Below are positions 16,270 to 60,214 of a stretch of 64,000 nt of DNA, one piece after another. The stretch is from Halorientalis persicus. Its GTDB lineage: Archaea > Halobacteriota > Halobacteria > Halobacteriales > Haloarculaceae. The stretch lies in NCBI RefSeq assembly GCF_900110215.1, contig NZ_FOCX01000012.1, positions 62,001 to 126,000 of the forward strand, given 5' to 3'. How positions within the stretch are numbered: the first letter of the stretch is position 1; every line of letters begins with the position of its first letter. A program made the translations under genes and the position numbers. The notes beneath the pieces were generated by a model. That model was not told where the DNA came from. It did no database searches and saw only the letters and a program-made list of their open reading frames with translations.

Positions 16270-16361
16270 CCCAACGCTTGGGAAACCGCGCCGTCGTCGG
16301 GCGTAGCCCGACTGCCTGAGGGAGCTTCGCTCCCTCTCCGTTTACGGCGCGGAGGATGTCA
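16270..16361 (+). mobile_element. Right end of the TnpB element with omega-RNA-like hairpins
   Basis: After the TnpB stop comes a 5-bp hairpin (CCCAA/TTGGG, 16270-16282). Then a long stem, CCGCGCCGT at 16287-16295 pairing with ACGGCGCGG at 16344-16352, encloses two perfect hairpins (GTCGGGC/GCCCGAC and GAGGGAGC/GCTCCCTC). The end GGAGGATGTCA is, from memory, typical of haloarchaeal IS1341-type right ends. In active elements this region forms the 3' part of the guide (omega) RNA. The last bases TCA are also the reverse complement of the purQ stop codon. Confidence 0.6.
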
Positions 16362-24875: not shown

Positions 24876-25058
24876 CCCACTTTTTACTGCGGGGGGTTCG
24901 CGTCGCGAACCCCCCGTTGCAAAAACTTGGGGAAAAACTACGGAACTCGCGCCGCTGGCGCGAGTTCCGGGATTCCCGCGAGTGACCGCAGGGAACGAGT
25001 GGGGGCTCGTCAGAGCGTAGCTCTGACGGTGATCGCCGCGCCTCCGGCGCGGCGGATG
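24876..25058 (+). repeat. Intergenic structured repeat, copy A; rest of a 557-base gap
   Basis: It begins with CCCACTTTTT, followed by a hairpin with 12-bp perfect arms (GGGGGGTTCGCG and its complement), a GCAAAAACTTGGGGAAAAAC block, three further GC-rich hairpins and an end GGCGGATGC. The copy follows the kinase stop by 6 bases, so it could act as a terminator. The rest of the gap (25059-25365) is mixed-composition DNA with no recognisable gene. Confidence 0.65.
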
Positions 25059-28595: not shown

Positions 28596-28720
28596 CATCC
28601 GCGCGACCGAAGGGAGCGCGGTTCACCGAACCCGAGCGAAGCGAGGGTTCGGCCTTTTTCGCCCACGTTTTTGCCGCGAGTGGTTCGCGCGAAGCGCGAA
28701 CCCGAGCGGGAAAAAGGTGG
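28596..28720 (-). repeat. Intergenic structured repeat, copy D; rest of a 385-base gap
   Basis: Read on the minus strand it starts CCACCTTTTT, continues with a hairpin (GGTTCGCGC paired with GCGCGAACC), a GCAAAAACGTGGGCGAAAAA block and another hairpin (CGAACCCTCGC/GCGAGGGTTCG), and ends GCGGATG. The rest of 28382-28766 shows no convincing gene: an open frame from 28436 has no family resemblance and runs through the repeat. Confidence 0.6.
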
Positions 28721-31123: not shown

Positions 31124-33382
31124 CTACGACACGTCGGTCGTCGTTTCCGCCTGTGGACGGAACTCGAACCGCGTGCCCGCGCTGGCACCGTGTCTCTCGG
31201 TGCCCCCGGTCGACGTGGCTGTGCCGTCGGTTACCGCGGTCGTGCTCCCGACCTCGCTGTCGACCAGTGACACCGCCCAGCCGTGGGCCTCGGCGATCTC
31301 TCTGACGATGGTGAGACCGAACCCCGTTCCGTCCGTCTCCGTCGTGAACCCGGACTCGAACACGGCCTCGCGATCGGACTCGGGGATGCCCGGCCCGTCG
31401 TCTTCGACGTAGAAGCCGGTACCGCCGTCCGCTCGCTGGGTCCCGCCCGCGTCGCTCCCGGAGCTTCCCGCCGAGAGCGGGCCGACGGTGACGGACACGT
31501 CTGGGCCGCCGTGCTCGACGGCGTCCTCCTGAGCCTGTGAAGGAGGGCTCGTAGAGCCATGCTCTACGGCGTCACCAGAACGCTCCGAGTTCTGGTTGCC
31601 TGTCGAGCCGTGCTCGACAGCGTTGCGAAAGAGGTTCTCCAACAGTCGGCGCAGGCGGTCGGGGTCGGCCTCGACGGCGGCGTCGTCGGCGACCGTGAGC
31701 GTCGCCGGGCCGGTCCGGACCGTCGCCCAGGCCTCGTCGGCGACGGTCGCCAGCGAGACGGGTTCGGTCTCCCCGACGGTCCGACCCTGTCGGGCGAGCT
31801 CCAGCACGTCGTCGATGATCGTTTCCATGCGATCGTGGGCGGTCTCGACCCGGTCGAAGGCGTCCTCGTCGCCGGTCCGGCGGGCCTCGTCCAGGTAGCC
31901 CTCGGCGATCTGGAGGGGGTTCCGGAGGTCGTGGGAGACGACGTTCGCGAAGTCGTCGAGTCGCTCGTTCTGCCGTTCGAGCTCCCGTTCGCGGCGCTTC
32001 CGGTCCGTGATGTCCCGGGAGTTGATGACGACGCCCCTGACGACGGCGTTCTCGAGCAGATTCCGCGCGATCCCCTCGAGGACGCGCCACTCGCCGTCGG
32101 CGTCGGCGATCCGGAACTCGAAGCGGACGGTCGCCCCGGGCTCGTCGACCAGCGACGAGAACCGCTCGCGAATCTGTTGTCGGTCGTCGGGGTGGATGTA
32201 CTCGGCGACACGACGGCCGGCGATGGCATCCGGGTCGATCCCCAGTACCGTCTCGTGGGACGGGCTGGCGTAGGTGACCGTCCAGTCCTCGTCGAGGACG
32301 GCGATCACGTCCGTCGAGTGCTCGATGAGTTCCTGATAGCGTTTCTCGACCTGCCGGCGCTCGGTCACGTCCCGCAGGAGGACCAGACTGCCCAGTCCCT
32401 CGCCGGTCTTCGACAGCGCCGAGCGGTTGGCCGCCAGGTAGCGGCGCTCGCCGGCCACCTCGACCGACAGTTCCAGCCCGGTCGGGTCGTCGCCGTCGAG
32501 TAACGGTTCGATCTCGGGGAGGACGGTCCGCACGTCGGCCCCGATCACGGTCTCGTCGGCTTCCAGCAGCCACTGGGCAGATGGGTTCAGGTCCACGATC
32601 CGCTCGTCGTCGCCGAGGACGACGTACCCCTCGCGCATACTCTCGACGACGCGCGTCCGGGCGATGGGCTCCAGGTCGAGCAACTGGTAGCGTTTGATCG
32701 CGTAGATGAACGCGGCGACGGAGAACGTAAAGCCGATGGGCGAGAGCTCGACCGAGGCGTGGGGCCCCAGCCCGAGGACGACCCACAGGCTCACGACGAT
32801 GGGTGCGGCGGCCGCGACGATCAACGCCGCCATCTGGCTCCGGTAGAGCGTCGGCGACGTGCGCATAAAACGGCCGAGCAAGGCGACGCCGAGCAGTGCG
32901 ACGCCGAACGCGACGCTCACGAACAGGTAGTACGCGACCGTCTTCTCGTAGGTCAGCGAACTGAACGAGCCGTGATCGACGACGGTCGGTGTCGCCCACA
33001 TGAGTTGGTGGATGTCGTTGGTGAGCGCGAGGATCGTCCCGACGCCGAGGACGAGGGTGATGGACCCGACCACGGGCACCGACAGCAGGTCGTCGTGGTC
33101 GGTGTAACTGGCGGTGAACACGAACCAGCCGATCACGACGATGGGGGTCCCGACGTAGGTCCACTGCTCGGCGACGACCATCACCGAAAACGAGGTGGCC
33201 GACACCTGCACCAGGGCGGCACCCGCCCACACGAGCGTCCCGAGACTGACGACGGCGAGCGAGCCCACGCCCGTGTCCCAGCCCCGGCGGCGCGCGTCGA
33301 ACAGCAGGTACCCGCCGAACACGAGACTGCACAGTACCGTCACTGCGAACGGGATCGTGTACGGCGTGAATTCCCAGACCAT
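31124..33382 (-). CDS. Histidine kinase with 7TM and two PAS domains
   Basis: A 752-residue sensor kinase with a seven-helix N-terminal membrane domain (about 1-225), two PAS domains (LEPIARTRVVESMREGYVVL and RYQELIEHSTDVIAVLDEDW), H-box FANVVSHDLRNPLQIAEGYL and an ATPase domain with G-box DDGPGIPESDREAVFESG. The N-box is unusual: LFRNAVEHGST is followed by two inserts, each ending in another AVEHG copy. The C-terminus lies about 15 bases from the convergent HTH-10 gene. No partner regulator is adjacent. Confidence 0.85.
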   Translation of the reverse strand: MVWEFTPYTIPFAVTVLCSLVFGGYLLFDARRRGWDTGVGSLAVVSLGTLVWAGAALVQVSATSFSVMVVAEQWTYVGTPIVVIGWFVFTASYTDHDDLLSVPVVGSITLVLGVGTILALTNDIHQLMWATPTVVDHGSFSSLTYEKTVAYYLFVSVAFGVALLGVALLGRFMRTSPTLYRSQMAALIVAAAAPIVVSLWVVLGLGPHASVELSPIGFTFSVAAFIYAIKRYQLLDLEPIARTRVVESMREGYVVLGDDERIVDLNPSAQWLLEADETVIGADVRTVLPEIEPLLDGDDPTGLELSVEVAGERRYLAANRSALSKTGEGLGSLVLLRDVTERRQVEKRYQELIEHSTDVIAVLDEDWTVTYASPSHETVLGIDPDAIAGRRVAEYIHPDDRQQIRERFSSLVDEPGATVRFEFRIADADGEWRVLEGIARNLLENAVVRGVVINSRDITDRKRRERELERQNERLDDFANVVSHDLRNPLQIAEGYLDEARRTGDEDAFDRVETAHDRMETIIDDVLELARQGRTVGETEPVSLATVADEAWATVRTGPATLTVADDAAVEADPDRLRRLLENLFRNAVEHGSTGNQNSERSGDAVEHGSTSPPSQAQEDAVEHGGPDVSVTVGPLSAGSSGSDAGGTQRADGGTGFYVEDDGPGIPESDREAVFESGFTTETDGTGFGLTIVREIAEAHGWAVSLVDSEVGSTTAVTDGTATSTGGTERHGASAGTRFEFRPQAETTTDVS
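31508..31624 (-). repeat. In-frame palindromic inserts in the kinase N-box
   Basis: Three near-identical units coding (N/D)AVEHG(ST) are separated by inserts of 27 and 24 bases. Each insert contains a palindrome: ACCAGAAC/GTTCTGGT at 31574-31596 and CCTCCT/AGGAGG at 31525-31546. Units 1 and 2 are full 24-base copies (31601-31624 and 31550-31573). The reading frame is kept throughout. Confidence 0.7.
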
Positions 33383-41255: not shown

Positions 41256-41430
41256 CCCACTTTTTACGTCGGGGGGTTCGCCAGCGGCGAACCCCCCATC
41301 GCAAAAACGTGGGGAAAAACTGCCGCGAGTCGCGCCTCCGAGAGACCGTCGGTCTCTCGTGCTCCCACTCGCTACGCTCGTGGGAACTGCGGCCCGCTCG
41401 CGGTTGCCATGCTTGTGCAACCGCGGCCGC
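41256..41430 (+). repeat. Intergenic structured repeat, copy B
   Basis: CCCACTTTTT starts 3 bases after the RAM gene stop; then comes a hairpin with perfect arms (GGGGGGTTCGCC paired with GGCGAACCCCCC), GCAAAAACGTGGGGAAAAAC, and further hairpins (GAGAGACC/GGTCTCTC and CCCAC/GTGGG around GCTACGC). The end is less clear than in the other copies and runs into a GCCACCGC-rich stretch. Confidence 0.6.
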
Positions 41431-44550: not shown

Positions 44551-44735
44551 CCCACCTTTTTTCTGCGTCGGGTTGCGCGCCGACGGCGCGCAACCACTCC
44601 TTGAAAAACGTGGTCTCCGTGAGCCGAATGCGAACGGAGGCTCGAAAGACGCTCCGCGTCTTTCGGTGGCGAAAAAGGCGCGAGCGCGACGATGCCGCGC
44701 TCGCGAAGAACCGCGGCGCAACGCGCCGCGGATGC
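44551..44735 (+). repeat. Intergenic structured repeat, copy C, filling a 344-base gap
   Basis: CCCACCTTTTTT is followed by a hairpin with 11-bp perfect arms (GGTTGCGCGCC/GGCGCGCAACC) and a TTGAAAAACGTGG block. Then come hairpins (GAAAGACGC/GCGTCTTTC; GAGCGCG/CGCGCTC; CGCGGCGC/GCGCCGCG), and the copy ends CGCGGATGC. Unlike copies A and B it lies between two divergent gene starts, so it is not simply a terminator. The last 120 bases before the next start are a CCGCCACC-rich low-complexity stretch. Confidence 0.62.
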
Positions 44736-54760: not shown

Positions 54761-55020
54761 CATCCGGCGCGCTCTGCGCGCCGGTTCACGGGACCGAGCG
54801 AAGCGAGGTCCCGTTTTTCGCCCACGCCGAGCGGGTGGCCGAGTATGGGGACCTGAAGGCGGAAGTGAACGGGGAGGACTGAGGCAAGCGTCCGCGCGAG
54901 CGGAGCGAGCGCGGTTCTTCGCGAGCGCCGCGAGGCGCTCGCGCCCGTTTTTGGTCCAGCTTTTTGCGAGGAGCGGTGCCGCGCTCTGCGCGGCACCCGA
55001 CGAAGTAAAAAGGTGGGGGG
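54761..55020 (-). repeat. Intergenic structured repeat, copy E (double), containing an mptA tail
   Basis: On the minus strand it starts CCCCCCACCTTTTTACTTCG, then a hairpin (GTGCCGCGC/GCGCGGCAC), CGCAAAAAGCTGG with CAAAAACG, a second hairpin (GCGAGCGCC/GGCGCTCGC) and GCGCGGACGC. A second, partial unit follows and ends in GGATG, immediately after the mptA stop. The two units are separated by the mptA tail copy. Confidence 0.62.
54820..54882 (+). repeat. Diverged copy of the mptA 3' end
   Basis: Sixty-three bases that read [20 protein letters not shown] and stop. Compared with mptA 54698-54760 ([20 protein letters not shown], stop), only two codons change the residue (T to D, G to A); six others differ synonymously and the stop changes from TAG to TGA. 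This is the pattern expected between two functioning mptA alleles, not between a gene and a decaying duplicate. Confidence 0.75.
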
Positions 55021-58963: not shown

Positions 58964-60214
58964 GTGTCGTCGGACGAGTACCTCCGTCGGACAGCGATCA
59001 CCCGACTCTCGGTGACCACCGAGGACGAGCGCTTGCTCCGCGATACTGTGGACGCGTGGCGGCGTGGCTGCCAGATCGCTGTCGAAAAGGCCTGGAATCG
59101 GTGCCACGACAAATCCGCTGTCCAATCGCTGGCCTACGACGAGATTCGCGACCGGACCACCCTCGGAAGTCAGCACACGATTCTCGCCACGCATCAGGCT
59201 GCGGAAAACATCCGATCCTGTCGGTCACGTCGCGAGAACGGCCGGAAGGCGTCCAAACCCACCTACACGAGTCCGACGGTCAGGTACGACTCGCGGACGA
59301 TGACGGTCTTCGAGGAAGACGAACAGGTGTCGCTCACGGTGGCCGGCGACCACTCTCGCGTGCGGTGTGACCTCGTGCTGCCCGAAGACGAAGACGGCTA
59401 CCAGCGACAGTATCTCGACGGCGAGTGGGAACCGACCGAGAGTACACTCCACTACCGAAACGGCGACTGGTTCCTCCACCTCGGATTTCGCAAACGCCGA
59501 CCCGAGACCGAAGGCGAGACGACCGAGAACGGAACGGTTCTCGGCGTCGACCTCGGTGTCGAACAGATCGCCGTCACCAGCACTGCCCGGTTCTTTTCGG
59601 CCGGTGAATTGAACCACCGACGGCGCGAGTTCGAGCGCGTCCGTGGCGGTCTCCAGAAGTGTGGCTCCCGGAGCGCGCATCGAACTCTGGAAACCGTCGG
59701 TGGCCGCGAAGACGAGTTCGTGAAACACGTCCTCCACAGCGTGGCGAACGGAATCGTTGCAGAGGCTCGTCGCTTCGGCTGTGACGGAATCGTTTTCGAG
59801 GAGCTGTCCGGTATTCGCACTCGACTCCCGAATGCGGCCTGGCACGCCGAGTGGGCCTTCGAACGGCTCTACGAGTACGTCGAGTACAAGGCAGAAGCGG
59901 TAGGGCTGTTCGTCGATACGGTTGACCCCCGGAACACCTCGCGGCGGTGTGCCGAGTGTGGCCACGTCGCCGAGACGAACCGTCCCAGCAGGGAGACGTT
60001 CGAGTGCGAGGCGTGTGGAAACCGGAATCACGCCGACTACAACGCAGCCAAGAACGTGGCTGCGGCGTATCTCCGTCGGGAGCAACAGTCTTCCCGGCGG
60101 AGGGGTGTCAGTCGATACGCCCTGAAGTCCGGGGCCGTCAGCGAACGCAGCGGGTTCGCTCCGTACGAGTCCACGGACGAGTCGCCCAATCCTGCAGCAA
60201 CCTCGTCAGGGTGA
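58964..60214 (+). CDS. tnpB: TnpB RNA-guided nuclease of an IS200/IS605-type element (no TnpA)
   Basis: A 416-residue TnpB with all catalytic parts: RuvC Asp196 (LGVDLG), Glu279 (VFEEL), Asp358 (HADYNAAKN), and a zinc ribbon Cys329/332/348/351 (CAEC, CEAC). TnpB is a guide-RNA-directed DNA endonuclease, ancestral to Cas12, that retains the element in the chromosome. The GTG start at 58964 matches family N-termini (EYLRRTAITRLSV). No transposase TnpA is near, so the element depends on a TnpA elsewhere or is stranded. The tail ends LKSGAVSERSGFAPYE, as in haloarchaeal relatives. Confidence 0.88.
   Translation: MSSDEYLRRTAITRLSVTTEDERLLRDTVDAWRRGCQIAVEKAWNRCHDKSAVQSLAYDEIRDRTTLGSQHTILATHQAAENIRSCRSRRENGRKASKPTYTSPTVRYDSRTMTVFEEDEQVSLTVAGDHSRVRCDLVLPEDEDGYQRQYLDGEWEPTESTLHYRNGDWFLHLGFRKRRPETEGETTENGTVLGVDLGVEQIAVTSTARFFSAGELNHRRREFERVRGGLQKCGSRSAHRTLETVGGREDEFVKHVLHSVANGIVAEARRFGCDGIVFEELSGIRTRLPNAAWHAEWAFERLYEYVEYKAEAVGLFVDTVDPRNTSRRCAECGHVAETNRPSRETFECEACGNRNHADYNAAKNVAAAYLRREQQSSRRRGVSRYALKSGAVSERSGFAPYESTDESPNPAATSSG

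Follow-up and report, generated by a model that had tools for sequence, protein, structure and literature searches.

We conclude that the insert at the N-box of a histidine kinase encoded in a 64,000-nucleotide stretch of the Halorientalis persicus genome (the window) is likely to be a tandem pair of short, non-autonomous mobile DNA elements of haloarchaea, which insert immediately 3' of a GAC or AAC triplet. The element is about 45-55 nt long and has the architecture hairpin 1, (G)AGC or GGCA linker, hairpin 2, GAC. We draw this from the anatomy of the units, the covariation within their stems, a GAC boundary, presence and absence at orthologous sites, and occurrence in unrelated genes.

The kinase gene (31124..33382, minus strand; ORF and domain assignment) encodes a protein of 752 amino acids with a 7TM-PAS-PAS-HisKA-HATPase_c organization, and the units lie within it in frame. 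On the minus strand between 31508 and 31624 the N-box protein reads FRN-AVEHGST-GNQNSERSGD-AVEHGST-SPPSQAQED-AVEHGGPDV. The corresponding DNA is laid out as AAC^GCTGTCGAGCACGGCTCGACAGGCAACCAGAACTCGGAGCGTTCTGGTGAC^GCCGTAGAGCATGGCTCTACGAGCCCTCCTTCACAGGCTCAGGAGGAC^GCCGTCGAGCACGGC, with the units head to tail between (A/G)AC triplets and natural boundaries at AAC^GCT...GAC^GCC...GAC^GCC. Unit 1 (31571..31621, minus strand; 51 nt, N type; model R2, 54.2 bits, E 6.7e-14) is GCTGTCGAGCACGGCTCGACAGGCAACCAGAACTCGGAGCGTTCTGGTGAC, encoding AVEHGSTGNQNSERSGD, and follows the AAC that forms the N-box Asn codon (31622-31624). Its hairpin 1 (31600..31620, minus strand) has 9-bp arms and a 3-nt loop and is made by the A-VEHGST codons; its hairpin 2 (31574..31596, minus strand) has the arms ACCAGAAC/GTTCTGGT. 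Unit 2 (31523..31570, minus strand; 48 nt, P type; model R1, 71.2 bits, E 8.7e-18) is GCCGTAGAGCATGGCTCTACGAGCCCTCCTTCACAGGCTCAGGAGGAC, encoding AVEHGSTSPPSQAQED, with CGTAGAGC/GCTCTACG as hairpin 1 (31550..31568, minus strand) and CCTCCT...AGGAGG as hairpin 2 (31525..31546, minus strand). Each unit is thus made of two perfect hairpins, the first formed by VEHGST codons and the second lying within the variable stretch. After unit 2 the end of the N-box appears a third time, with one arm only (31508..31522, minus strand); it reads GCC GTC GAG CAC GGC, then GGC CCA GAC, and matches the AVEHGGPD of insert-free kinases.

The initial annotation of this DNA had described inserts of 27 and 24 nt, each with a palindrome, and both palindromes are present (ACCAGAAC/GTTCTGGT and CCTCC/GGAGG). 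Its threefold NAVEHGST needs correction: copies 1 and 2 are AVEHGST, but the third is DAVEHGGP, in which about 15 of the 24 bases are repeated. The first two of its 24-base flanking repeats are themselves perfect palindromes, which had been overlooked (CTGTCGAGC-acg-GCTCGACAG with 9-bp arms and CGTAGAGC-atg-GCTCTACG with 8-bp arms). The repeat is real and is part of something larger.

We collected 110 kinase arrays with about 200 units and used 166 distinct units to examine pairing in hairpin 1. V3/S3 is paired in 153 of these (shuffled mean 75, maximum 93), E3/G3 in 154 (shuffled mean 82, maximum 102) and A3/T3 in 143 (shuffled mean 114). Among 229 VEHGST hexapeptides, V3/S3 is C-G in 98, G-C in 95 and A-T in 6, and E3/G3 is A-T in 110 and G-C in 96; the E3/G3 match is weaker in VEHG copies that lack the following ST. 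Hairpin 2 co-varies through amino-acid changes, as in SPDSQARQD, SPPSQAQED, SPRSQAPED and SPASQAQQD (D..RQ, P..QE, R..PE, A..QQ) and, in the N type, NRT-SDD/NRT-SGD. Since its pairs are kept by means of amino-acid replacement, the peptide follows the palindrome. The base-pair covariation score is 0.398 for P units (0.134 shuffled) and 0.436 for N units (0.173 shuffled), and none of 500 shuffles scored as high. The stems change freely yet stay palindromic; therefore, it is the symmetry of the DNA that is conserved and not the peptide.

Strong stem covariation would also be expected if the hairpins acted as RNA in the kinase mRNA, in regulation or stability, and were conserved for that. We regard this as very unlikely. 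Among the non-Watson-Crick cells of the stems A.C occurs 56 times and G.T 28 times, and because G.T, the wobble pair of sense RNA, is the rarer of the two, selection on sense RNA is not suggested, with the reservation that codon bias may contribute to the difference. The family also occurs between genes, in a tRNA-like gene and in reverse orientation in a kinase C-terminus, and in Rfam 15 no family covered the units above the gathering score; the only matches were tRNAs at the locus L195, none of them over the units.

Units at the N-box recur well beyond the window. Other kinases of the same 4.87-Mb genome carry 1 to 3 of them at this position, and most kinases there have plain NAVEHGG; the initial annotation had proposed a search for the palindromes elsewhere in the genome. 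A 43-nt exact stretch across the unit is common to the window kinase and a second kinase of this genome (L002). In the order as a whole, a two-unit query matched 162 of 293 genomes and 48 of 87 genera, with at most 15 matches per genome. The exact 24-mer VEHGST-P, searched against 84,980 species genomes, was found in 83 stretches, all titled Halobacteria except one from a Salinivenus sp. MAG (L354). That record, the sole bacterium-titled one with a match, could reflect transfer or a mis-binned contig. In haloarchaeal plasmids we found only ordinary kinase copies of units. The same exact 24-mer was absent from 2.9 million viral contigs, and a viral vector was rejected on this ground.

Several kinase arrays hold further inserts. 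Two kinases, L009 (contig C25 of the same genome) and L085 (G004), have a second variable insert near the C-terminus, before GARFEF. The reverse complement of this insert reads as the same two-hairpin unit (in L009, CGGAAGACG...CGTCTTCCG-AGC-CCCCGC...GCGGGG-ACGCC), and insertion of units therefore occurs in either orientation; a long insert is found at the equivalent place in the window kinase. An additional palindromic segment is nested in the arrays L030, L053, L069, L070 and L102 (genomes G134, G195 and G152); it encodes VHQTESDAAHQNAQRSED, or a peptide close to it, and seems to be an element of a different family that has entered the unit. Interspersed in the arrays L057, L204 (G288) and L353 (Haloterrigena salina) are inserts of yet another type, ADGAS.VEPS..D..DD (SSEPSVADAPED), which resemble the unit SSDEPPVADAPGD of ArgH.

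Of 111 exact 24-mer matches, 109 lie in kinase N-boxes (95 assigned by a strict automatic test and the remaining 14 by eye) and 2 in non-kinase genes. Additionally, pairs of units that differ at no more than two bases make up 14 of 185 comparisons between kinases of one genome and 41 of 8709 between genomes. This enrichment within genomes points to intragenomic copying by transposition, by short-tract gene conversion or by both, and given the 109 kinase matches, conversion between paralogous genes may account for a large part of the spread. It could be argued from the same two observations that gene conversion among paralogous kinases is the only route of spread, the unit being a kinase-specific hitchhiking repeat with an incidental likeness to other elements. 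We consider this improbable: two non-kinase genes contain the identical VEHGST unit, and one of these genes has orthologues with 1 and 0 units; members of the wider family that share its linkers are present in ArgH, ValS, LeuS, HisC and intergenic arrays; and gene conversion requires flanking homology, which is missing at the non-kinase sites.

The non-kinase members of the wider family were obtained with covariance models, which were built from the P and N kinase units and searched against the genomes carrying units. These models recovered the two-hairpin architecture between genes, in the intergenic arrays L192 and L199, and in frame within ArgH (same genome as the window), ValS and HisC (G091), LeuS (G288), and a thioredoxin reductase-like and an AI-2E transporter-like protein (G275). 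Units were also found in GltX-like, Kae1-like and MBL-fold proteins; the identity of these hosts, and the classification of some weak non-kinase matches, rest on sequence alone. One further unit (L195:701-756, minus strand; contig C22 of the same genome) separates the D arm from the anticodon arm of a tRNA-Thr(TGT)-like gene. This gene is part of a dense tRNA gene cluster on the 37-kb contig.

Comparison of orthologues provides filled and empty sites. The closest orthologue of the window kinase (G005, 74% identical) has no unit and reads FRNSIEHAGPAV. For a kinase compared within one genus, most orthologues have no unit, three have one and two have two. In ArgH the unit is present in four congeners and absent in four, with a second tandem unit in one congener; the site is ...GGCGAC^GTGGTC... 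when empty and GGCGAC[ACCGTCGG...GGGGAC]GTGGTC when filled (51 nt). ValS contains two 45-nt units in one species and none in 12 congeners, and a Natrinema non-kinase protein has orthologues with 2, 1 and 0 VEHGST units. Insert-free relatives of the kinase had been named in the initial annotation as something to look for, and its proposal of a small, mobile-looking, frame-keeping palindromic element is borne out by them, by the units in other kinases and by unrelated genes with empty orthologues; the opposite outcome that it had envisaged, inserts common to all orthologues and no palindromes, was not observed.

Comparison with the empty orthologues shows units of 45, 48 or 51 nt that are placed 3' of a GAC, or of an AAC in the N-box, have GAC as their last triplet and leave no separate duplication. 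GAC also stands immediately upstream of 15 of 32 non-kinase matches, at a position that the model does not include; because Asp codons are frequent in haloarchaea and part of the matches are tandem, we take this enrichment as supportive only. Intergenic units measure 50, 51, 53 and 55 nt. A multiple of three is therefore not intrinsic to the element, and the lengths of 45, 48 and 51 nt within genes reflect selection for frame. Target-site duplication, which the initial annotation had proposed, is rejected: the AVEHG(ST) repeat belongs to the element as its hairpin 1 and travels with the unit, which is found whole in non-kinase genes too. The GAC that closes the kinase unit differs from the AAC upstream of it and is therefore no copy of a target triplet.

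These sites also bear on the idea that the insert arose within the gene, through tandem expansion of N-box codons by replication slippage with the palindromes as a by-product. Kinase L037 contains seven near-identical tandem units and kinase L045 five, and units lie head to tail; slippage clearly alters copy number in these two arrays. As an account of the units themselves we find it scarcely credible. The repeated block is not the N-box plus flank and adds a second hairpin that is missing from insert-free kinases, covarying stems and units in unrelated genes and between genes are left unexplained, and the filled and empty sites in ArgH, ValS and the Natrinema protein already contradict it.

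Within the window, a descriptor for two hairpins ending in (G/A)AC matched six places, of which two are the kinase units, and matched none in three second-order Markov shuffles; since, in addition, covariation exceeded that of all 500 shuffles, two-hairpin units are not a product of chance. One of the other matches is an intergenic two-hairpin unit of the kinase-unit family (16291..16335, minus strand; N type, GAC end; model R2, 31.6 bits, E 2.4e-7, as well as the descriptor). Two more come from the descriptor only: a unit with the linker of the kinase units, CGAAAGACGCGGAGCGTCTTTCG-AGC-CTCCGTTCGCATTCGGCTCACGGAG-AC (44615..44667, minus strand), and a related unit, CGAGAGACCGTCGGTCTCTCG-TGC-TCCCACTCGCTACGCTCGTGGGA-AC (41339..41387, plus strand). 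Copy number was sampled only, with 4 descriptor matches in 180 kb of the same genome and 6 in 220 kb of another, and some of these matches are unrelated hairpin pairs. Further double-hairpin sequences with other linkers (e.g. GAA between the hairpins, ATGCT after them) lie at 25008-25054, 28599-28652, 44679-44731, 54764-54814 and 54892-54943, and are possibly a second class of palindromic element.

If the units are mobile elements as we propose, they may move non-autonomously by way of folded single-stranded DNA. Recognition or propagation would act on DNA, through the two palindromes and the conserved linkers, and leave the sequence of the stems almost free. Each unit ends in GAC and would thereby offer a site for the next insertion, producing head-to-tail arrays. 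Within genes only frame-keeping copies of 45, 48 or 51 nt, with GAC read as an Asp codon, would survive and yield a hydrophilic, disordered peptide. The N-box could be a hot spot because its DNA, AAC GCC GTC GAG CA(C) (AACGCCGTCGAGCA), resembles the unit boundary GAC GCC GTC GAG CA (GACGCCGTCGAGCA) and because the same site recurs in dozens of paralogous kinases. Between kinases, units might pass by repeated insertion or short-tract conversion, with slippage changing their number. The unit is apparently selfish rather than useful to the kinase. We tentatively suggest, as a less probable generalization, a class of mobile DNA whose machinery reads hairpin architecture and short linkers instead of stem sequence: stems would drift by compensatory change or template-switch correction during movement between GAC sites, and core proteins throughout the haloarchaea, kinases and aminoacyl-tRNA synthetases among them, would thereby acquire covarying peptides.

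IS200/IS605-type proteins are a plausible, unproven candidate for the mobilizing enzyme. The genome has two Y1 and 32 TnpB loci, and a TnpB/Cas12f-like zinc ribbon gene (PF07282) is located in the window itself, at about 59858-60058 on the plus strand. One possibility, which we hold to be doubtful, is that the units are terminal-only PATEs, that is, IS200/IS605-type elements of which just the two near-terminal palindromes are left and for which a Y1 transposase acts in trans. In the part of the Haloquadratum account considered here (PMC3119063), terminal-only copies are 52 bp long, contain two palindromes, lack a target duplication and have a conserved terminal oligonucleotide that acts as target; the two Y1 and 32 TnpB loci are a further point in favour. 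However, the ends of the two Y1 loci and of part of the TnpB loci gave no clear match to the unit, the inspected right ends having one hairpin and other terminal bases; reading the hairpin feet, we found no guide-like bases complementary to GGAC, and the stems of the units vary freely within one genome.

The effect on the kinase was examined in an AlphaFold2 model of a fragment, based on a 27-sequence alignment. In the model residue 128 of the fragment is the last of the N-box helix and the next strand starts at 168, and the insert between them has no secondary structure and mostly a pLDDT below 60. The inserts thus apparently lengthen a disordered loop after the N-box helix, and the initial annotation, which had placed them in a catalytic loop, was imprecise on this point.

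If our interpretation is right, the range of protein-coding selfish palindromes would grow by a large archaeal order, in which over half of the genomes searched carry them. The frequent presence or absence of units between close relatives makes in-frame insertion directly testable, and the compensatory amino-acid changes would be a rare case of protein variation dictated by DNA symmetry. A cause is also offered for the odd tandem VEHGST repeats of haloarchaeal kinases, together with a caution against reading them as functional motifs.

Among known systems, the initial annotation had named Rickettsia palindromic elements (RPEs) as similar in idea, and the parallel is sound: there is in-frame palindromic insertion in several unrelated genes, and there are empty orthologous sites. 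RPEs are short palindromic elements found in frame in unrelated genes, including housekeeping genes, where the peptide is tolerated (PMC10969869; PMC2996958), and the haloarchaeal units are in frame in ArgH, ValS, LeuS, HisC, the thioredoxin reductase-like protein and kinases. RPEs are about 150 bp in size and their encoded peptide is conserved (PMC10969869), whereas the units are 45-55 nt long, have two separate hairpins and encode a peptide that varies with freely co-varying stems. Head-to-tail arrays, the GAC boundary, a hot spot at one protein motif and a different domain of life are additional differences. By length and peptide conservation, as described for RPEs, the units are set apart from them.

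Repetitive extragenic palindromes (REPs) are likewise short and non-autonomous, form tandem or mosaic arrays and are associated with RAYT transposases; they are extragenic, high-copy and near-identical and have a GT(A/G)G head (PMC2817692). The units share with REPs and BIMEs the short palindromes, the tandem arrays and the lack of autonomy, but their stems vary and copies lie inside genes. We rejected a REP/RAYT assignment, as the units have RCC and AGC at the hairpin feet and no GT(A/G)G head. A MITE assignment was also rejected, because there are no terminal inverted repeats (the two hairpins are internal and have different stems) and no target duplication (AAC upstream and a GAC end in kinases).

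With the PATEs, as described in part in PMC3119063, the units have in common a scale of about 52 bp, two palindromes, haloarchaeal hosts, the lack of target-site duplication and a target (here GAC/AAC) 5' of the element. The palindromes of Haloquadratum PATEs match IS605 ends of the same genome (PMC3119063), but the inspected Y1/TnpB ends here are unlike the units, a comparison made with PATEs by description; in-frame placement in kinases is a feature of the units that goes unmentioned for PATEs in the part of that source considered. Palindromic DNA with coding potential is also represented, according to the portion of PMC2996958 used here, by the coding palindromes of Methanocaldococcus jannaschii and Wolbachia and by PARCELs. 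The PARCEL paper, as far as it is drawn on here, reports none in archaea, and the likeness of the units to them is by description. A search for literature on VEHGST repeats, haloarchaeal coding palindromes and kinase inserts found none, which is weak evidence as it covered open-access texts. On the best reading of these comparisons, the units are an apparently undescribed form of palindromic selfish DNA that encodes protein, and the kinase N-box is a hot spot for them.
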